A DNA stretch of 8,189 nt from Oscillospiraceae bacterium (GTDB taxonomy: Bacteria; Bacillota_A; Clostridia; Saccharofermentanales; Saccharofermentanaceae). Below are positions 1-8,189 of this stretch, piece by piece. Within the stretch, counting starts at the first letter, position 1. Each line of letters starts with the position of its first letter. The notes below the pieces were generated by a model, which saw only the letters and a program-made list of their open reading frames with translations, did no database searches and had not been told where the DNA came from. The DNA is taken from the NCBI GenBank assembly GCA_902803365.1, contig CADCPU010000324.1, forward strand, positions 1 through 8,189, given 5' to 3'. Made by a program: the position numbers and the translations under genes.

Positions 1-3000
1 CCGTCAAGCATATCCTTGGCCTTCTTGACAAGGTCTTCGACTGTGTAGCAATCAAAGTAGCCTATCTTATAAGCCATACTCTTATGGTTGGAATAGTCAT
101 AATACCTGTTTGTTCCTTCGTGATAACTTAGGAAATAATAGATTACTTCAGTCTGTACGAATTCATTGGTATCTATTACTGCTGCTGCTATATGATTATC
201 GATCAGCAGTTTGTCTTTTAAAACGATGAATTCAATATCAACTGTTTCAAAGCCAAAATTCAATTCAGTAATGTCTAATAATGATCCGTCATCAATCTTA
301 TATTTGCCCAATAAATCCGATTCGAAAACTATATATAAGATTCCATCCTGCTCGTAGAAAGCACGAGGTCCAAGCTGACCACATTCTATCGAACTAATCT
401 CCTTATAATCCTTCAAAGAGAATATTTTTACTGTTTCCTTATTAGCCATACAAATATAATCATTGTTAATATAGGCATTTTCATATTGGAATCCGTCATC
501 GAATTCTATCGTCTTTATTTTGTTCTTTTCCATATCTAGAATATGTGCTTTACCATCTGACGTGGTAAACAACATTTTCTGTCCATCGTCAGTAATATAC
601 ATACCTCGTAACAGATCAAGCGATGAATACTCGAAATTGAGAGCATAATCCTCGAACTTCTCTGTAGCAGGATCAAAAACACGAATGCATGCATTTCTAT
701 TAGTATCTTTTACTGGATAAAAAAATCTCTCAGCAGTACAATTAACCTGAAGTGAATAAAGACTCTCATCGCAAGCATCGAATTCATCGACAACTTTACC
801 CTTATCCAGATCAAACTTCAAGATCTTCGCATCATAATCCACATTGCTGAATATATAGCAATATTCATCAACTTTTACCAATCCATAGTAATCAAAAAAT
901 GAACCATCCAGATCAAATTTGTCTATAACCTCACCGGCATTCTGATCTATAACGGTCAGTGTATAATGCTGAGTCTTATCGTCCACCGGATTTTTAATTC
1001 TTTCATAAGACTCGATCAGTAATGTATCACCATAAACATATTTGTTAATGCTCAAGCCAAGATCATCCCATTTATCTTTTTGATGACCAATGCAGGTCCA
1101 GTTCCTGTCATAAACATCATTCCTGTAACAAGTAATTATATTGTCGTTAAACTCAACTGTATATACACCATAATAATTGTAGACAGCCTTATCGATATTG
1201 TTGGAAAAGCACTGGAAAACATTGATGAATTCACCACTATCATCTGAATTGCATATACCATATTGTCCATCCGACGTTATTATCCGAGCTACAGAACTTC
1301 CACCATCATCAAAGACAGAAACTATATCATCACTGCAAATGAAAGAATTGATCACCTCTCCTGTTTCAAGATCAATATTCGCCAAATTCTTACCAACACA
1401 GTAAACGACAGAATCACTGCCTTCAGGATGATAGAATTTTCCTCTTAATCTGTTCTCAGCATAATGTTTATAATCCAGAGTCCATTTTTCCTTACAGGTC
1501 TGAGGATCGTAATTGGCAAGATAGATTGTATGCTCTCTCAAAACATTGGCCGTAGTCATACCGTAAAAATTATTGAGTGTAGATATTAAAATATTATCAT
1601 TCCCACACCATGTCAGATCCAATTCGGATTCATATACATTCTCAGCACTTATATATTCCGACGTTTCAAAATCATATACGACAAGACGATTCTCTAGTCC
1701 GGCACCACCGCTTTCCAAAGAAATCGCTACCTTCTTACCATCAGGCGATATACTTGCTTGATTTACCGATGCAAAATATTTCGTTGTCGGACTGTCAAAA
1801 TCATAGTCACTGGTATAAACCCTTTCACCGGTATTTAAGTCTATTTTAACGATGGTTCCATTGGCCAGCATGGTATAAACATAATTGTCCCTGAATTCCA
1901 ACATTCCTCCATCAAACTTGTTGCTATTGTCAGTAAACCTCGAAACATCGTCTGAATCGGTTATGTATTCAGGTACATTCTCCCATACAACTCTTCCATC
2001 CTCGGTCGATACAGCGATCATTTTCTCTTCGGTAAGAATTATCAATATATCTTCATTAGGAAATCCGAAATTCAAAAAATCTTGCGAACTAAAAGTCTCC
2101 TTATGACTATAAGTATCCCAACATTTGATATTTCCGATCTCATCTCCTCCTGCCAGATAGTATCCTTCAGACGATACTTCCAATTTTTTTATCTTACCTG
2201 ACATTGTATAATTCCACTCAGGCTTATAAGACAACGACGACAACTTCGGCATATAAGCTCCTGTTGCCTTGGTCAGAGCACGTATTCCAGATGATGTTAC
2301 AGGCATTTCAGGATTCTCTTCAGAGGGAACAGCAGCCAATGCAAGTTGCAATGCCTTTACTACCTCATCATCTTCATATAATCTTAACGATTCACTGGAA
2401 TAATATTGAGCGCGACTTCTGAGCGAATCCTCATAATGCCTTTGTACCTCTTTTTTACTGTGATACATATAAAATCCAAAACCGATCGCAGCCGCGAGCA
2501 CTGCCGAACCCACCGCAGCAGCGCGCTGGATCCTGTAGACACGGCGCCTTCTCATGAGTTCATCATATGAACAGCCAATGATCGGGGCAGCAAGCCTTGG
2601 AAGCTCTTCTTTGTCTGCTTTTCGGAAAGACATGCGATAATCGCACGATAGAGGTTCGAGAGGAACCTTGACCTTATGGACCGTACCGTTATCGTCCGTT
2701 ACTTCATGCTCCTCATAGAGCAACTCCTCAGGAATAACATCACCCGGCTCGCCGTCGCAAAGGACAGTGAGTACCCTGTTTCTCGGATGCGTCTCAAGAA
2801 AGACCTTGATCTCACGCGTTACCCATGTGGAAAGCTTCGTCCTGGTCGAACAGATAACAATAAGGTAGTCGGAATGCTCAAGCGCGTAAGAGATCGTATC
2901 CGTAAGATTACACGTGATAGGAAGTTCTTCCTTATCCCTGAAGATCCTCGTGATCTTCTTTTTGCCTGTCCTCTTGGCGATCTTTCCCGGAATGTGGAAA

Positions 3001-3089
3001 TGCTCGAGCTTGTGCTGAACACGCTCTGCGATCTTTGAATCAAGTTCCCCGTGCTTGTAAGAAATAAACGCGTCGTAATGATCTATCAT
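1..3089 (-). CDS. TIR domain - transmembrane - beta-propeller protein (3' end beyond window)
   Basis: The frame has no stop from the ATG at 3089 to position 1, giving 1029 full residues; the C-terminus lies outside. Residues 4-115 form a TIR domain: YDAFISYKH (5-13), a BB-loop-like segment FRDKEELP (50-57), DYLIVICS (74-81) and STWVTREI (87-94), where E93 sits where TIR NADases carry their catalytic glutamate. LAAPIIGCSYDELMRRRR (166-183) is followed by one membrane helix (about 190-209). A helical linker with KALQLALAAVPSEENP follows, then a propeller of about 730 residues with a WD-like IKCWD (W324), ISPDGKK (D450) and repeated D-x-x-x-G-E/K strand turns such as IDLNTGE, IDLETGE and FDLDKGK. 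The last residues, VEDLVKKAKDMLDG, resemble the C-terminal tail of bacterial WD40 proteins, so the true end is probably near. Arginines before the helix suggest TIR inside and propeller outside. Likely a sensor coupled to NAD+ cleavage or signalling; the ligand is unknown. GAGGGG lies about 10 nt before the start. Confidence 0.9.
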   Translation of the reverse strand, partial: MIDHYDAFISYKHGELDSKIAERVQHKLEHFHIPGKIAKRTGKKKITRIFRDKEELPITCNLTDTISYALEHSDYLIVICSTRTKLSTWVTREIKVFLETHPRNRVLTVLCDGEPGDVIPEELLYEEHEVTDDNGTVHKVKVPLEPLSCDYRMSFRKADKEELPRLAAPIIGCSYDELMRRRRVYRIQRAAAVGSAVLAAAIGFGFYMYHSKKEVQRHYEDSLRSRAQYYSSESLRLYEDDEVVKALQLALAAVPSEENPEMPVTSSGIRALTKATGAYMPKLSSLSYKPEWNYTMSGKIKKLEVSSEGYYLAGGDEIGNIKCWDTYSHKETFSSQDFLNFGFPNEDILIILTEEKMIAVSTEDGRVVWENVPEYITDSDDVSRFTDNSNKFDGGMLEFRDNYVYTMLANGTIVKIDLNTGERVYTSDYDFDSPTTKYFASVNQASISPDGKKVAISLESGGAGLENRLVVYDFETSEYISAENVYESELDLTWCGNDNILISTLNNFYGMTTANVLREHTIYLANYDPQTCKEKWTLDYKHYAENRLRGKFYHPEGSDSVVYCVGKNLANIDLETGEVINSFICSDDIVSVFDDGGSSVARIITSDGQYGICNSDDSGEFINVFQCFSNNIDKAVYNYYGVYTVEFNDNIITCYRNDVYDRNWTCIGHQKDKWDDLGLSINKYVYGDTLLIESYERIKNPVDDKTQHYTLTVIDQNAGEVIDKFDLDGSFFDYYGLVKVDEYCYIFSNVDYDAKILKFDLDKGKVVDEFDACDESLYSLQVNCTAERFFYPVKDTNRNACIRVFDPATEKFEDYALNFEYSSLDLLRGMYITDDGQKMLFTTSDGKAHILDMEKNKIKTIEFDDGFQYENAYINNDYICMANKETVKIFSLKDYKEISSIECGQLGPRAFYEQDGILYIVFESDLLGKYKIDDGSLLDITELNFGFETVDIEFIVLKDKLLIDNHIAAAVIDTNEFVQTEVIYYFLSYHEGTNRYYDYSNHKSMAYKIGYFDCYTVEDLVKKAKDMLD

Positions 3090-3228
3090 ATCCCAATATC
3101 CCCTCTATCAAATAACACCGCAACCTATCATATTATAACATCTATTTTATTAATTTAAAAAGGAACTGACAAGCGAAATAGGCCGGACTTTTACTTTGAT
3201 CCTGCGCCTTAAGTCGCGTCGCGCAAAA
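3090..3228. other. AT-rich gene-free leader region before the TIR gene
   Basis: This is the TIR-side part of the 466-nt gap between the TIR and peptidase genes. It holds the TIR promoter and Shine-Dalgarno sequence. Between about 3160 and 3228 I see no gene, RNA gene or further repeat unit. The stretch around 3121-3160 is much more AT-rich than the array beside it. Confidence 0.6.
3132..3159 (-). promoter_or_regulatory. Extended -10 promoter of the TIR-propeller gene
   Basis: On the minus strand TGTTATAAT carries a perfect TATAAT (3137-3132) preceded by the TGn extension. A poor -35 candidate, TTTAAA (3159-3154), lies 16 nt upstream inside a very AT-rich stretch that could act as an UP element. 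The start would be near 3125, giving a leader of about 36 nt. An extended -10 with a weak -35 fits a promoter that may need an activator. Identified by pattern only. Confidence 0.55.
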
Positions 3229-3496
3229 TGACTTCCCTGCGCCGCCACTCGAAAAGCTGCAATCATAAAATGACTCCCCAAGGTAGTCATTCCGAAAAGA
3301 CCGATTTGGTTTTGACTTCCTGAGGTAGTCATTCCAGATTTGCAGTTTTGGCTTTGGCGTCCTTAGGTAGTCATTTTAAAATGGGAGTTTGGGTTTTGAC
3401 TCCCTGATGGAGTCATTCCGAAAAGACTTCGGCTTTGACGTCCTTAGGTAGTCATTCCAAAAACGCAAAAACTCAGATGACTCCCCTGGGGCGCCA
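3229..3496. repeat. Degenerate tandem array, 42-bp period, with internal inverted repeats
   Basis: Seven units start with TGAC or a near match at 3229, 3271, 3313, 3355, 3397, 3436 and 3478. The first four and the sixth are 42 bp, the fifth is 39 bp, and the last is cut short next to the upstream gene's terminator. The best conserved core is GGTAGTCATTCC, at 3282, 3324, 3366 (ending TTTT) and 3447; the 3397 unit has GGAGTCATTCC. Together with the leading TGACTNCC it forms a short inverted repeat, perfect in the 3397 unit (TGACTCC, 5 nt, GGAGTCA). The rest of each unit varies, though GAAAAG recurs in three units. The outermost units keep TGACT-CCC but have GC-rich GCGCC in place of the core. 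No reading frame stays open across the array, so it is probably non-coding. Function unknown. Confidence 0.85.
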
Positions 3497-3511
3497 AAAC
3501 GCCGGAAGCAC

Positions 3512-3546
3512 ACAAAAACGCCTCCCCCGGATAGGAGGAGGCGTTT
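3512..3546 (-). terminator. Intrinsic terminator of the S41-type peptidase gene
   Basis: AAACGCCTCC (3516-3525) pairs perfectly with GGAGGCGTTT (3537-3546), and two more G-C pairs are possible past one mismatch. Read on the minus strand, the hairpin starts 9 nt after the peptidase stop codon and is followed directly by a T run (TTTTTGTG). This is a strong textbook terminator. It separates the peptidase transcript from the repeat array and the TIR gene. Confidence 0.88.
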
Positions 3547-3555
3547 ACTTAAGTC

Positions 3556-4521
3556 TTACTTGATCTCAGAGAGGAGCCATTCCCTGGCGGCATCGTATGC
3601 CTCTTTGGAGGTTACGGTCTCAACGTCAGGCGCGAGGCCGTCAGTCAGGATCTCCTTGCCGCTCTTGGTCACTACCGGGCCGACGACAACGTACATGACC
3701 GCGCCGTCATAAAGCATAGTCGGGTTCAAAGAGTTACAAGCTCCGGCAGTCGTGTGACCGAAGGTCCTTACGTTATCCTTGTCCTCAAATGCCACGATCG
3801 ACATCTCGGCGGCACTTACCGTATTCTCGTCCTGCAGGATCGCGATCGGGCAAGAAGGATCAGCCTTGACCGGATCTACGCTGACGGTGTATCCGCCGCC
3901 TGTTGAGGCAACTCCGTCTCGAACAGCGACCGGAGTATCAAGACCCGGAGCCCTGAAACTGAACTGAGTACCGTCATTTACAAACGGAGAGATCGCGCCC
4001 ATAGCGGCAACGATATTCATTCCGTTGATATCCCTGTAATCGAGGATCACTCCCTTAACTTCGGATTGATGTTCTTTATAGTAATCCACGACTGTATTGC
4101 TGTATTCGCGGATATTATCGGGATTAAAGATCGGCTCGAGATCCACATAGAGGATGCCGTCGGAATCAAGTGAGAGCGATGGCATGAGATCTTCTTCCTC
4201 ATATCCGACGTCTTCGGGCGGCACGATCTTGGATGAAGGACCGCCTGCGGCCTTAGCTGCTTCGTCGAGCAGCGCGTGTGCCTCGTCAAAAGTCTTGATA
4301 TCTGATGCTCTGTCCAGAATGTCGGCCTCAGTCTTTTTCCATTCATCGGTAGAAGCCAGATAGCCGTATTCGCAATACGTCATCGAAATCTTGACATATC
4401 GTGAAGCCGACGGCTTGATAATATATATGCCGTAATACGGACCGTATTTATACAAAACTGCAAATCCTACAAGAAGAAGTGTCAGGATAACTGCGCCAAT
4501 AGCAATGAGTGCCTTTTTCAT
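3556..4521 (-). CDS. Membrane-anchored S41-family (C-terminal processing type) peptidase homologue
   Basis: A 321-residue protein. The N-terminus MKKALIAIGAVILTLLLVGFAVLY is a signal anchor or uncleaved signal peptide, so the catalytic part should lie outside the membrane. The C-terminal half has the S41 fold signature: VILDYRDINGMN, a stretch SPFVNDGTQFSF, then ILQDENTVSAAEMSIVAF followed by NVRTFGHTTAG. The serine of VSAAE (residue 236) aligns with the S41 nucleophile. The lysine of the Ser-Lys dyad in Tsp/CtpA is absent at the expected place, as in tricorn-like relatives, and no PDZ domain is visible. The RDINGMN segment is less glycine-rich than the usual RGNGGG. The protein may therefore be a divergent or weak peptidase. 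The start is the ATG at 4521 because GGAGG lies 6 nt before it; a GTG at 4539 would place that site inside the gene. It appears to be transcribed alone. Confidence 0.85.
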   Translation of the reverse strand: MKKALIAIGAVILTLLLVGFAVLYKYGPYYGIYIIKPSASRYVKISMTYCEYGYLASTDEWKKTEADILDRASDIKTFDEAHALLDEAAKAAGGPSSKIVPPEDVGYEEEDLMPSLSLDSDGILYVDLEPIFNPDNIREYSNTVVDYYKEHQSEVKGVILDYRDINGMNIVAAMGAISPFVNDGTQFSFRAPGLDTPVAVRDGVASTGGGYTVSVDPVKADPSCPIAILQDENTVSAAEMSIVAFEDKDNVRTFGHTTAGACNSLNPTMLYDGAVMYVVVGPVVTKSGKEILTDGLAPDVETVTSKEAYDAAREWLLSEIK

Positions 4522-4527
4522 CGATAA

Positions 4528-4532
4528 CCTCC
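4528..4532 (-). promoter_or_regulatory. Shine-Dalgarno site fixing the S41-type gene start
   Basis: GGAGG on the minus strand lies 6 nt before the ATG at 4521. It decides between this ATG and the in-frame GTG at 4539, since the GTG would put the site inside the coding region and has no comparable site of its own. Confidence 0.8.
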
Positions 4533-4554
4533 AAAGCACACAATTCTCCGAGAC

Positions 4555-4583
4555 ATTGTATCACAGGGTCTGCGCTTTGTAAC
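4555..4583 (-). promoter_or_regulatory. Promoter of the S41-type peptidase gene
   Basis: In the 70-nt gap after the flavoprotein gene, the minus strand reads TGATACAAT (extended -10, hexamer 4560-4555), with GTTACA (4583-4578) 17 nt upstream as a -35 matching TTGACA in four of six positions. A short inverted repeat AACG-N2-CGTT overlaps the -35 side (4581-4590) and could be an operator half-site. The start would be near 4548, giving a leader of about 27 nt. Confidence 0.55.
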
Positions 4584-4591
4584 GTGCGTTA

Positions 4592-5221
4592 TCAAATAAA
4601 ATTTCTCCAGACGCGCTCTTCACCAATATCAGGCATACCGAACTTCTCTTTACCCATGGCAATGCTCTTCATAAGGAAGGTCATATTGTTTGCGAGGACG
4701 CGCATGACCTGGGTGCCTTCATTATCTGCAACAGCTTCACCCGGCTCCCAACCGTAGATGTTATTCCAGTACTGGCTGGATGCAACAGGCATATTGGAGA
4801 GCGTAAAGAACTTGTTGAGCTCGTCAAATGTAGCCGTGCAACCGGAACGCCTTGCGCTTACGACACTGGCACCGACCTTCATGGACTTATCAAAATGCGT
4901 GCTGTAGAAAAGACGCTGGATGGCGGACATGAGCGTACCGTTCGCCGAGCCGTAGTAGACAGGCGAGCCGATAACGAGGCCGTCTGCCGCTTCGAACTTG
5001 ACAGCGAGTTCATTTACGATGTCATTAAAGACGCACTTGCCGATCTCACGACACTTCTCGCAGGCTATACATCCCCTGATATCCATGCGGCCCAGAAGGA
5101 CCGTCTCGGTCTCAACGCCGTTAGCCTCAAAGACTTTGGCCATCTCATTAAGAGCGAGCGCCACGTTGCCGTGTTTCCTGGGGCTGCCGTTTAAGATCAA
5201 TACTTTGAGTTTCTTTTCCAT
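4592..5221 (-). CDS. Iron-sulfur flavoprotein (Isf-like), NAD(P)H-dependent FMN reductase family
   Basis: A 209-residue flavodoxin-fold protein. LILNGSPRKHGN (8-19) is the FMN phosphate-binding loop, and GSPVYYGSANGTLMSAIQRL is the second flavin-contact region typical of this family. Between them, CIACEKCREIGKC gives C51-x2-C54-x2-C57-x5-C63, the compact cysteine spacing that binds a [4Fe-4S] cluster in Isf of methanogens and clostridia. It should be cytoplasmic and pass electrons between a reduced carrier and FMN; the physiological acceptor is unknown, with oxygen or quinone detoxification as possibilities. The length is normal. AAAGGAG lies about 9 nt before the ATG, inside the end of the preceding YczE-like gene, whose stop is only 3 nt upstream. 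The two are therefore almost certainly translated from one message. Confidence 0.9.
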   Translation of the reverse strand: MEKKLKVLILNGSPRKHGNVALALNEMAKVFEANGVETETVLLGRMDIRGCIACEKCREIGKCVFNDIVNELAVKFEAADGLVIGSPVYYGSANGTLMSAIQRLFYSTHFDKSMKVGASVVSARRSGCTATFDELNKFFTLSNMPVASSQYWNNIYGWEPGEAVADNEGTQVMRVLANNMTFLMKSIAMGKEKFGMPDIGEERVWRNFI

Positions 5222-5224
5222 ATA

Positions 5225-5872
5225 TTAAGTCTCCTTTGCTTTTCCTTTGAGGAATGGTCTCGCGATATGAACATTGAAGAACTCTATAAGAGGTCCCATA
5301 AAAAATGCCGTTATGATAGTCCCGACTCCCGCGATCGTGATGATCTGACTAGCAGCACCGCCCGCAAGAAGGAACAGCGTCACTCCAAGGATAACACAAA
5401 CGAGATCAGTGATGATCCTGACGTACTGGAATTTACCCTTTTTCCATGTATTTACGATAATGAGAGCGACAGCGTCATAGGTTGATACACCAAGATCAGC
5501 GGTCATGTAGAATGCCGAACCGAAGCAGATTATCACTACACCGATGACAAGGCACGCAATGCGGACAGGAAGCGAGGGATCAGGGAAAATGCCCTGTAGG
5601 AATTCGTAAGTGAACTGCGTGATATAGCCCAGCAGGAAAAGATTTATGAATGTCGCTATGCCGATATAATGTCTGTCGAAAATGATCGCGAACAAGAGCA
5701 TCACCGCATTGGTAATGACGTAGAGCGTTCCAAAGCCGATGGGGACCAGCGAATCAAGACCCGCCATAAAAGACTGAAACGGATCAACACCCAAAGCCGC
5801 GATCTTGAAGATCCCGACGCTGATCGCGCATATGATAACTCCAAACAGAGACATTCCTATCCTTTTTGCCAT
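5225..5872 (-). CDS. YczE/YitT-type integral membrane protein
   Basis: A 215-residue protein with about six membrane helices (roughly 5-25, 48-66, 70-93, 103-122, 149-171, 176-199). The segment FKIAALGVDPFQSFMAGL is typical of YczE/YyaS/YitT-like proteins. The two halves look duplicated: LGVDPFQSFMAGL (27-39) and LGVSTYDAVALII (127-139) lie exactly 100 residues apart, and each follows a first helix of similar pattern. Family members are uncharacterised or have only genetic phenotypes, so no substrate can be named. The frame stays open to 6112, but I start at 5872. There AGAAGG lies 5 nt before the ATG, the longer version would overlap the HAD gene by more than 140 nt, and its extra 80 residues are hydrophilic and unlike the family. 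It is probably cotranscribed with the flavoprotein gene 3 nt downstream. Confidence 0.85.
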   Translation of the reverse strand: MAKRIGMSLFGVIICAISVGIFKIAALGVDPFQSFMAGLDSLVPIGFGTLYVITNAVMLLFAIIFDRHYIGIATFINLFLLGYITQFTYEFLQGIFPDPSLPVRIACLVIGVVIICFGSAFYMTADLGVSTYDAVALIIVNTWKKGKFQYVRIITDLVCVILGVTLFLLAGGAASQIITIAGVGTIITAFFMGPLIEFFNVHIARPFLKGKAKET

Positions 5873-5877
5873 AACAA

Positions 5878-5883
5878 CCTTCT
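5878..5883 (-). promoter_or_regulatory. Shine-Dalgarno site fixing the YczE-like gene start
   Basis: AGAAGG on the minus strand sits 5 nt before the ATG at 5872. It supports the short 215-residue form over the in-frame upstream ATG at 6112 inside the HAD gene. The 97-nt gap behind it (5873-5969) shows no convincing terminator or promoter: TCGACA at 5966-5961 resembles a -35 but has no -10 at a suitable distance. Confidence 0.65.
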
Positions 5884-5969
5884 TCCGCGGACGAACCGCT
5901 TTTATGATGCATAATGATATCGTGACTTCGAAAACGAGTCCGCTATATAACACACTTTTATGTCGATTT

Positions 5970-6791
5970 TCAGTGATTGTCTTGTGCGATAAATCGCGCG
6001 ACGCTGTCTTCGTTGTTGGAACCGAGGATGCCGGTCGCGGCCGCCTTGACTTCATCGAGGGCGTTGGACATCGCGTAAGCTTCGTCTGCGATCTCGAACA
6101 TTGGCAGGTCATTGACGGAATCTCCGAATACGACGAGCCTTTGGGCGCCCAGGCTCTCCTTGAGCTTTAATATCGCTTTGGCCTTGGTGCTGTTATCGGG
6201 ACATATCTCGAGCCAGTATTCCTCACCGTAGGTGTCCTTCTGAAATACGCACTCCCAACCTTTGTACTCGCTCATGCGGGCATAGGCATCAGTAAGCTTT
6301 TCCCTGTCGTCCACCAGGGTGACATAGCCGGGCTCTCCGTCAAACATCTCGTCCAAGGAAGACGCTGCGACCATGCGCGTGTCGTCCGCGTGCTCTTCAA
6401 CGTATTTTCGAAGACCGACAGAGATATCGCCCTCAAAATAGAACTTCTTCATGTCGTCTCCGAAGTAGGATGATACAAAGCCGCAGTGCGCAAGTTCGGG
6501 CAGGCGGGTCTTGAGGATATCGATCTCAGACGGAGTAAAGAGAGCGCGCCTGATCATGCGGCCGGTGGTGTTGTCTGCGAGGACAGTGCCGTTTCTGGAG
6601 ATGACCGGGAGCGAGAGCTTAAGGCCGCCGGTTATCTTGCGGGCGCTTTGTATGGATCTTGCCGTCGCGTATGTAAAGAGAACGCCCTTGCTGACCAACC
6701 TGTTTATTATGCTTACGGTCTCCTCGGATAAAGTCTTGTCGCTCCTCATCAGGGTTCCGTCCAGATCGGTAACATAAAGGGTGTCAGGCAT
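5970..6791 (-). CDS. Cof-type HAD-superfamily phosphatase (subfamily IIB)
   Basis: A 273-residue cytoplasmic hydrolase with all four HAD motifs. Motif I is VTDLDGTL (7-14), with D9 as nucleophile and D11 as general acid. Motif II is the threonine of TYATARS (T43). Motif III is the lysine of STKAKAI (K203), and motif IV is GDSVNDLPMF (223-232), which binds magnesium. The region between motifs II and III is the large C2 cap that defines the Cof/YbiV group and gives substrate choice, typically sugar phosphates, nucleotides or FMN. The substrate cannot be told here. The start codon overlaps the end of the preceding membrane-protein gene by 8 nt, with GAGGAG 7 nt before the ATG, so the two are translationally coupled. 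Pairing with a flavoprotein downstream makes FMN or its precursors a conceivable substrate, but this is only a guess. Confidence 0.92.
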   Translation of the reverse strand: MPDTLYVTDLDGTLMRSDKTLSEETVSIINRLVSKGVLFTYATARSIQSARKITGGLKLSLPVISRNGTVLADNTTGRMIRRALFTPSEIDILKTRLPELAHCGFVSSYFGDDMKKFYFEGDISVGLRKYVEEHADDTRMVAASSLDEMFDGEPGYVTLVDDREKLTDAYARMSEYKGWECVFQKDTYGEEYWLEICPDNSTKAKAILKLKESLGAQRLVVFGDSVNDLPMFEIADEAYAMSNALDEVKAAATGILGSNNEDSVARFIAQDNH

Positions 6792-7380
6792 TTAAAGTCT
6801 CCTCGCTCGGTAATGAATCATCGGTATAGAGCACACAGGCCATAACAAGTATGAACACATTCTCCCATATAAATACAGTATCCCAGAAGAATTGCCATTG
6901 TACTACGCCATAGGCAAAGATAAAGAAGATCGCGAAGCAGCTCGCCAAAAATGCGCATCTCCTCTTGCGTCCGGTCTCGCCCTTCATAAAGAGCACAACG
7001 AAGGAAACGGCCACCGCGAGCATCAGCGAATAGGCGAAAAAGTCATGCATATCTGAAGCAAAATAGCTCCATTCCTCATTGTAGGGAAAGATCATACAGC
7101 AGTATGCACATCCGAATATGAGGCCGTATATGACTTTGCGGTATGTCGGGATATTGATCTTCCTCAGATAGCCGTGTACAAGGCCGACTATGGGCGTAAA
7201 CGCGATGAAAAAGAAAACAGCCGTCCATGGGCGGAGAGCGATATATTTGGCCACGGTAAGACTTAAGTCGAATCTGTGGATATCAGCGATCCATGCCGAC
7301 AGCAGTACTGTCAGTATGGCCACAATATAAAGCGCCCCCGCAATGAAAAGTGGGCGCTTACCGATCATAAGTTTTCCCAT
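6784..7380 (-). CDS. Six-helix integral membrane protein of unknown function
   Basis: A 198-residue protein with about six hydrophobic segments (roughly 10-32, 47-70, 82-99, 114-132, 142-164, 168-186) and no signal peptide. I do not recognise the family with certainty. The segment IFPYNEEWSYFASDMHDFFAYSLML, with an acidic/aromatic loop followed by a histidine at the head of a helix, recalls DUF998 or Frag1/DRAM-like proteins. That is a weak resemblance. The start is supported by GGAG 7 nt before the ATG at 7380. The gene has its own likely promoter 34 nt upstream and overlaps the HAD gene by 8 nt, so it is the first gene of the downstream group. The C-terminal tail (DDSLPSEETLNA) is short and acidic. 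Confidence 0.8.
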   Translation of the reverse strand: MGKLMIGKRPLFIAGALYIVAILTVLLSAWIADIHRFDLSLTVAKYIALRPWTAVFFFIAFTPIVGLVHGYLRKINIPTYRKVIYGLIFGCAYCCMIFPYNEEWSYFASDMHDFFAYSLMLAVAVSFVVLFMKGETGRKRRCAFLASCFAIFFIFAYGVVQWQFFWDTVFIWENVFILVMACVLYTDDSLPSEETLNA

Positions 7381-7413
7381 TTTACGTCTCCGACAAAAAT
7401 AATTGACGATTCG

Positions 7414-7441
7414 ATTATACTACATCAGTCTTACTTTTCCA
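7414..7441 (-). promoter_or_regulatory. Promoter of the membrane protein-HAD gene group
   Basis: On the minus strand a perfect TATAAT (7419-7414) lies in the 50-nt gap between the GGDEF gene and the next gene. TGGAAA (7441-7436), 16 nt upstream, matches TTGACA in four of six positions and overlaps the last codons and stop of the GGDEF gene. The start would be near 7407, with a leader of about 27 nt. No terminator separates the two genes, so read-through from the GGDEF gene is also possible. Confidence 0.55.
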
Positions 7442-8189
7442 GCGTGATAACGACTTTATTCTTGCCGCTGTTCTTGCCGATGTAGAGTTTCTCGTCTGCC
7501 TCTTTTATCCAGACATCGACCGACTGACCATTCCTGTAGTCTGCGATACCCGATGTTATCGTTACATCTATCTTTTCGTTCTCGAAAACAAAATCGTACC
7601 CCTCAATGACCTTTCTGAGATTCTCGATCATCTCGAAGCCGTTCTTACTGACTTCGCCCTCGGAAAGGATCAGGAATTCCTCGCCACCCCAGCGCGAGAT
7701 CTCGCTGTTGCTGCAATTCTCCTTCATGAGCTGTGACAGGGTGCTGAGAACGTAGTCGCCGGCGTTATGACCGTAATGGTCGTTGATCTGCTTAAAGTTA
7801 TCGATATCCGACATCGTGACAAAGATCTTCTTGCCTTCTTTCACGGTCTCTTCGAGCTTCGTCATCATGAAGTGGCGGTTATAAAGACCCGTGAGACGGT
7901 CGGTATGTGCTATCGTCGTAAGCCTGTTCTCGTAGTCTCCGACCATCTTGAGCATTATGCCCGAATAAACGATCAGGAAGTAGAGAACGATCGCCGAATT
8001 CAGGAGCCAGAAAACGCCTGCGATCTCGTTACTGACATCATAGATCGGACCGTTAAATGCTGAATAGCCCGTGGCAACGACATAGCATAGAACTATAATG
8101 CCGCTTATAACAACTGCATTGACCTTGGATTTCTTGATCTTCTCGGCCATATACTCGGTATAGAAGATGATCGGGATCATGGACAGACA
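7431..8189 (-). CDS. Membrane-bound GGDEF diguanylate cyclase (5' end beyond window)
   Basis: Makes cyclic di-GMP from two GTP. Counting from the ATG at 8180, two membrane helices are visible (about 21-39 and 55-77), then a GGDEF domain from about residue 90 to the end. Its motifs are DRLTGLYNR (94-102), SDIDNFKQINDHYGHNAGD (124-142) with metal- and guanine-site residues D125, N133 and D142, the signature RWGGEEF (163-169), and ADEKLYIGKNSGKN (228-241). All active-site residues are present, so it should be active. The RxxD inhibitory site is missing: the matching positions are C156 and S159. The ATG at 8180 is probably internal, because the frame stays open to the window edge, no ribosome binding site precedes it, and it starts inside a hydrophobic segment. 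More sensory membrane helices therefore lie outside. Confidence 0.93.
   Translation of the reverse strand, partial: CLSMIPIIFYTEYMAEKIKKSKVNAVVISGIIVLCYVVATGYSAFNGPIYDVSNEIAGVFWLLNSAIVLYFLIVYSGIMLKMVGDYENRLTTIAHTDRLTGLYNRHFMMTKLEETVKEGKKIFVTMSDIDNFKQINDHYGHNAGDYVLSTLSQLMKENCSNSEISRWGGEEFLILSEGEVSKNGFEMIENLRKVIEGYDFVFENEKIDVTITSGIADYRNGQSVDVWIKEADEKLYIGKNSGKNKVVITLEK

Follow-up and report, generated by a model that had tools for sequence, protein, structure and literature searches.

A predicted membrane-spanning TIR protein of Clostridia with a near-constant output cassette, a variable double propeller and a DHH/DHHA1 gene partner in relatives

We investigated a stretch of 8,189 nucleotides from an Oscillospiraceae bacterium (assembly GCA_902803365.1, contig CADCPU010000324.1, positions 1 to 8,189 of the forward strand; hereafter, the window), which carries a gene for a TIR domain followed by a membrane helix, a helical linker and two tandem propellers. 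In the family to which this protein belongs, the TIR output cassette is nearly constant whereas the propeller sensor is hypervariable and, in one pair of loci, exchanged; in relatives, the gene adjoins one coding for a DHH/DHHA1 phosphodiesterase, and homologous linker-propeller regions also occur behind a Ser/Thr kinase. New in this work are the gene partner, the interchange of kinase and TIR outputs and the exchange of the sensor. In our best model, for which we judge the chances to be about even, the protein would be a surface receptor whose TIR domain makes an NAD-derived signal on which the phosphodiesterase acts; here we infer the topology, the enzymatic activity, the identity of the signal and the role of the partner.

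Architecture and sensor variability of the family

The open reading frame runs off the window at its 3' end, and the full-length protein would comprise ~1045 residues (Table 1). The TIR domain matched the TIR family model PF13676 with 33.4 bits (cut-off 28), and the structure model predicts a membrane helix and a WD40-like beta-propeller fold, in agreement with the initial annotation, which had proposed, from the letters alone, a TIR domain, an arginine-rich stretch, one membrane helix and a propeller region. That annotation had envisaged a single propeller of ~730 residues, however, and this was rejected in favor of the model, in which two propellers follow each other, the first with eight blades and the second with about eight, as judged from its strands; the fold search with the whole model mainly probes the first of them.

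Table 1. Features of the TIR-propeller gene in the window, and distant loci of related organization
Feature	Position	Strand	Residues and remarks
TIR, membrane helix, helical linker and double propeller gene	3..3089	-	1029 residues inside the window
TIR domain	2718..3077	-	5-124 (8-115 in a narrower delimitation)
Conserved extension EPLSCDYR...PRLA..IGCSYDEL	2550..2717	-	125-180
Arginine-rich stretch	2523..2552	-	180-189, from sequence
Predicted membrane helix	2463..2522	-	190-209, part of a continuous helix 175-239
Junction of output cassette and sensor	2424..2486	-	~202-222; change-point of third-position G+C at codon 202
Helical linker	2241..2462	-	210-283; homologous linker in kinase versions
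First propeller, eight-bladed, WD40-like	1110..2240	-	284-660, structure model
Second propeller, 31 strands, ~8 blades (inferred)	51..1109	-	661-1013, structure model
Onset of conserved C-terminal helix and motif Y.VEDL..KA...L....L...K..YG.	3..50	-	remainder beyond the window
Distant TIR-propeller and membrane-protein locus	L188:2416-4113 and 4016-6514		
Distant TIR-propeller and membrane-protein locus	L189:4199-6679 and 6683-8335		

A protein search returned 1568 homologues at E<=1e-3 out of 7998 scored candidates, named, where the source gives a name, as TIR domain-containing proteins of Clostridia-type bacteria, and 118 of the 120 homologues listed are 1006-1057 residues long. The family in Clostridia, across which the annotation had suggested a search for the same domain order, is large. 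The nine genome loci obtained belong to Lachnospiraceae, Saccharofermentans, Mageeibacillus and other Clostridiales, several of them in assemblies named for the rumen or omasum. Among 61 relatives of one locus genome, 36 had a match: the first 37 on the list account for 34 of these and the other 24 for 2, where list order is assumed to reflect closeness; most of these carry one or two copies, and genome G010 gave four matches. Class-wide, a match beginning in the first five profile positions was found in 29 of 291 genomes.

The two halves of the protein differ sharply in conservation. Median identity to the window protein was 67.5% over residues 1-120, 65% over residues 121-180 and 20.7% over residues 286-1000 for 118 of the 120 listed homologues (P0001 and P0048 were excluded for length), a set chosen by shared words and biased, as a consequence, towards the conserved TIR domain. 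The extreme case is homologue P0003, which is 98.9% identical to the window protein in the TIR part (1-180) and 29.6% identical in the propeller, the lowest value of the 45 pairs with TIR identity of at least 95% (median 68.0, range 29.6-85.3); along this pair, identity is 95% at residues 181-222 and then 61% at residues 223-260. The composition of the window gene changes in the same region: third-position G+C (GC3) is 0.545 over the first 222 codons and 0.328 over the propeller, and this difference of 0.217 is the largest in 36 loci including the window (mean 0.064, standard deviation 0.046). A scan of every codon placed the change-point at codon 202, with a log-likelihood gain of 18.0 compared to a maximum of 9.5 in 2000 permutations.

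Silent sites distinguish the two parts in loci L003 and L009. Of the fourfold silent sites, 79 of 85 are the same in both loci over the first 200 codons, as are 176 of 212 over the partner gene, whereas the propeller has only 90 matching sites out of 193 (Fisher p 9e-15 and 8e-15). The L003 propeller is nearer to that of L004 (78.6% amino acid identity) than to that of L009 (65.7%), whereas the TIR part and partner of L003 are nearer to L009. The simplest reading would be exchange of the sensor as a block. Several observations limit its reach: of five locus pairs, one shows a strong contrast, L003/L004 shows the opposite one (p 0.03), and the remaining three do not show it (p 0.89, 0.26 and 0.07), their TIR silent sites being near saturation as well; and, because both L003 and L009 are metagenome-assembled, an assembly chimera could produce the same pattern. 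Variable, exchangeable sensors suggest recognition of a changing target, such as a phage, a competitor, kin or a surface polymer. Excerpts of a report on putative antigen sensors that hypermutate in multicellular bacteria present a theme close to this diversity (PMC10907252).

Topology, kinase versions and the phosphodiesterase gene partner

Charge and composition both favor a propeller outside the cell. Lysine and arginine residues are more numerous before the membrane helix than after it in 94 of 119 sequences, equal in 20 and fewer in 5 (medians 6 and 4), and a second marginal hydrophobic stretch was present in 2 of the 119. A classifier based on composition, with 322 cytosolic-like and 38 exported-like open reading frames from stretches of six genomes as its training set (cross-validated area under the curve 0.913, sensitivity 0.82, specificity 0.91), classed the propeller as exported (window score 0.953) and the TIR part as cytosolic (window score 0.004) in all 119 proteins. 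Because six lactonase propellers, taken as cytosolic, scored 0.03-0.42, the exported call is not forced by the propeller fold alone.

In five genomes (L178, L179, L180, L181 and L182), a Ser/Thr kinase of the Hanks type and a membrane helix are followed by a homologous linker and propeller. A profile of the region beyond the membrane helix matched all five kinase proteins at E values of 9e-19 to 1e-24 and none of 370 other targets at E<=1; a profile of the linker by itself also matched all five, and the proteins have 7-10 lysine and arginine residues before the membrane helix and 2-3 after it. This fusion offers the strongest hint that the propeller lies outside. Taken together, the charge bias, the composition and the kinase fusion lend support to a receptor-like topology, and the homologous helix-linker-propeller module behind either a TIR domain or a kinase suggests alternative outputs of one receptor chassis. 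The surface receptor proposed in the initial annotation gains from these three lines and from the combination of variable sensor and constant output; a sensor outside and a TIR domain inside is the favored, though unproved, predicted arrangement. In separate observations, a PP2C-type phosphatase gene lies near the kinase gene of L181, and a gene for a secreted-looking protein is found nearby in at least four of the five kinase loci.

In 34 of the 36 TIR-positive relatives, the TIR gene adjoins a gene for a DHH/DHHA1 phosphodiesterase. This adjacency persists across three separate changes of relative orientation, although the other neighbors are shuffled (the next commonest neighbor family occurs in 9 of the 36 loci), and the partner also lies beside divergent members of the family in G018, G045, G265 and G298. 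DHH and DHHA1 domains exceeded both cut-offs in all three partner proteins scanned, and the metal motifs are retained, the first two in 26 of 27 proteins and DHH and GGGGH in all 27, which places the partner in the DHH/DHHA1 phosphoesterase family by its sequence. It differs from DHH-DHHA1 enzymes of the NrnA, GdpP and Rv2837c type in about 180 extra C-terminal residues (319-498; e.g., L003:3645-5138), which are confidently modeled and have no Pfam match, and in scoring below the NCBIfam cut-offs of the named members (21.4 and 18.7 bits against NrnA, NF053633, where the cut-off is 350); the fold search mainly probes residues 1-318 and barely tests the C-terminal part. By extension from the relatives, such a partner would also stand beside the window's own gene, the 3' side of which is off the window.

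The TIR domain itself may be equipped for catalysis. W89 and E93 are invariant in all 119 aligned sequences, and E93 lines up with the glutamate in the WCLEEL motif of plant TIR domains, in the SxWxxxE position, which we take to be that of the catalytic residue; the domain is, at the level of sequence, a candidate NADase.

Receptor model, known systems and alternatives

In the receptor model, the hypervariable double propeller would bind a ligand outside the cell, and the continuous membrane helix would relay the signal so that the cytoplasmic TIR domains cluster or reorient and cleave NAD+, with a nucleotide signal such as ADP-ribose (ADPR) or cyclic ADPR being formed. The DHH/DHHA1 enzyme of the neighboring gene might then hydrolyse this signal, or a cyclic dinucleotide pathway might come under its control, so that it would act as off-switch or responder, analogously to a receptor kinase with its phosphatase. 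With the output cassette staying near constant, the sensor could diverge and be swapped as a block by recombination, which is the pattern that changing selection would be expected to produce in a recognition module. For the most part, the TIR systems known from bacteria sense intracellularly; a receptor that unites a TIR domain and an exchangeable ectodomain in a single membrane-spanning protein, and that is common in one clostridial group, would bring TIR signaling to the cell surface. The bolder formulation, that of a Toll-like class of surface receptors with constant TIR output and polymorphic, recombinationally exchanged ectodomains, in which a dedicated DHH phosphodiesterase of the adjacent gene removes the NAD-derived messenger made by the receptor, we advance tentatively, as less likely than not; if true, it would give bacterial receptor kinases, with their phosphatases, a TIR equivalent. 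The receptor model predicts ligand-dependent NAD+ turnover, hydrolysis of the product by the partner, the topology described above and sensor exchange between strains.

The closest parallel is with PknD-type receptor Ser/Thr kinases, which, according to PMC3322341, combine a kinase with an extracellular propeller in the same order of output, membrane helix and sensor, a likeness reinforced by the five kinase versions; the present proteins differ in the TIR output, in having two propellers of about eight blades rather than one of six, and in the phosphodiesterase gene partner of the relatives. Animal Toll and Toll-like receptors share the single-span logic and the cytoplasmic TIR domain predicted here (PMC7075850, in part), but they have an N-terminal ectodomain of leucine-rich repeats and a C-terminal TIR domain, whereas the window protein has an N-terminal TIR domain and a propeller sensor. 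The formal likeness to a Toll receptor drawn in the initial annotation holds, as a prediction, for the single-span logic, the domain order and sensor type being different; the likeness is one of working alike rather than of membership, and no descent is implied. Bacterial conflict systems described in excerpts of PMC7159879 also employ TIR domains and beta-propellers as modules, but they are centered on vWA and MoxR and depend on nucleoside triphosphates, and no NTPase domain was matched in the window protein. No description of this architecture together with this partner was recognized in the portions of the open-licence PubMed Central literature covered.

Thoeris consists of the TIR protein ThsB and the effector ThsA. 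The window TIR domain scores above the cut-off of the ThsB_TIR Pfam model, but the protein is membrane-anchored with its own sensor, the partner in relatives is DHH/DHHA1, and, in 20 related loci, the PADLOC matches at E<=1e-10 for 92 flanking proteins included no ThsA, a comparison that covers the relatives' loci, the downstream side of the window gene being off the window.

Several points stand against the model. With regard to topology, lysine and arginine residues also follow the membrane helix, the exported training labels are crude (38 open reading frames chosen by a rule, in six genomes largely different from the source genomes of the 119 proteins), the propeller-only profile matches four of the five kinase proteins, missing L178, and the classifier puts two of their five propellers under 0.5 (0.41 and 0.49). 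The topology prediction suggested with the annotation favors an outside propeller by charge and composition and not by cysteine content, the medians of which fail to separate the classes (1.37% in cytosolic proteins, 1.13% in exported proteins, 1.55% in the propeller), so that this test was dropped as uninformative. A cytoplasmic propeller, with the hydrophobic helix serving as a mere membrane tether and the cue being internal, for example, a phage protein or cell state, would fit a cysteine content at least that of cytosolic proteins, the cytosolic score of the linker (0.07 in the window) and the frequent role of WD40-like propellers as intracellular scaffolds. Nevertheless, with a cytoplasmic N-terminus, a single span leaves the C-terminus on the outside, except in the case of a monotopic helix, and the charge bias, composition and receptor-kinase-like fusion all indicate the same side; we consider this alternative unlikely. 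Likewise improbable, in our view, is a TIR domain acting as a non-catalytic oligomerisation platform that recruits another protein, as in animal Toll adaptors. Matches to solved structures by sequence are weak (best E 0.0014, four sequences searched), the conserved extension at residues 121-180 could serve as a docking surface, and the catalytic activity is a prediction, but the invariant W89 and E93, the latter aligned with the plant glutamate, and the nucleotide-processing nature of the gene partner argue for an enzyme.

The gene partnership could, alternatively, reflect retention of a neighbor by common descent with no shared function. The partner and the TIR gene cover a common phylogenetic range, which deprives the co-occurrence statistics of independence; two genes would also stay adjacent if one of them were simply inverted in place; class-wide, the partner is adjacent in 10 of the 18 genomes with both genes, and the two are on different contigs in the other 8. 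The partner occurs without a TIR match in 4 of the 61 relatives (G011, at a contig edge, G042, G061 and G063) and in G206, 11 class-wide genomes with a match to the TIR region lack the partner, second copies of the TIR gene lack it in five genomes (L005, L043, L048, L080 and L089), and all the evidence comes from relatives, the window ending before the 3' side of its own gene. Set against this, adjacency survives the three orientation changes while other neighbors shuffle, and it extends to the four divergent members; we give mere neighborhood little credence. Slightly less doubtful, though still unlikely, is anti-phage abortive infection, in which the propeller would sense phage and trigger NAD+ depletion. 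Such depletion upon phage sensing is a common mode of bacterial TIR domains, the hypervariable sensor, exchanged in one locus pair, would suit it, and the TIR part shows weak PADLOC similarity (best E 1.7e-4). Conversely, the full protein has no convincing PADLOC match (one at E 0.038) and the partner none; at E<=1e-10, the 92 flanking proteins gave mad3 in 5 cases and AbiEi, SngA, mad2, mad8 and PDC-S33 once each, with no background rate for comparison; and the flanking Pfam families (25 of 64 shown) are mostly metabolic, transport or regulatory, which leaves membership in a defense island unsupported. A phage-borne origin was also rejected, 15 viral-contig stretches having matched a pattern and none encoding a relative. 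Occurrence in almost all of the first relatives listed, absence from these viral contigs and mostly non-defense neighbors argue against a typical mobile defense island, a role that we do not favor, so that we make no commitment to phage as the ligand of the putative receptor; the anti-phage role raised by the initial annotation found no direct support.

Neighboring genes and related loci

Between the TIR gene and an S41 peptidase gene, at 3281-3463, a 42-bp unit is repeated in tandem ~4.4 times. The array was discarded as a family feature, with no match in the related loci examined: repeats upstream of L009 belong to a repeat-rich coding region of a different gene, and L003 and L004 have repeats that resemble each other. 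No Rfam match was detected in the window at gathering scores. On the strand of the TIR gene, positions 3556-8189 encode the S41 peptidase, an NADPH-dependent FMN reductase, a hydrophobic protein with no Pfam match, a HAD hydrolase, a second hydrophobic protein with no match and a GGDEF protein, none of which appears to be functionally linked to the TIR gene.

Distant TIR-propeller proteins of 833 and 827 residues with clear WD40 matches adjoin a membrane protein of 566 or 551 residues (Table 1). One of these membrane proteins has a sub-threshold SLOG match (E 0.006) and both match PADLOC ShosA weakly; they are possibly alternative partners that would sense a nucleotide signal. Finally, phospholipid genes, encoding phosphatidylserine decarboxylase, an LPG synthase-like protein and CDP-alcohol transferase, recur near the TIR gene, in the flanks of L034, L035, L036, L037, L041, L045, L046 and L049.
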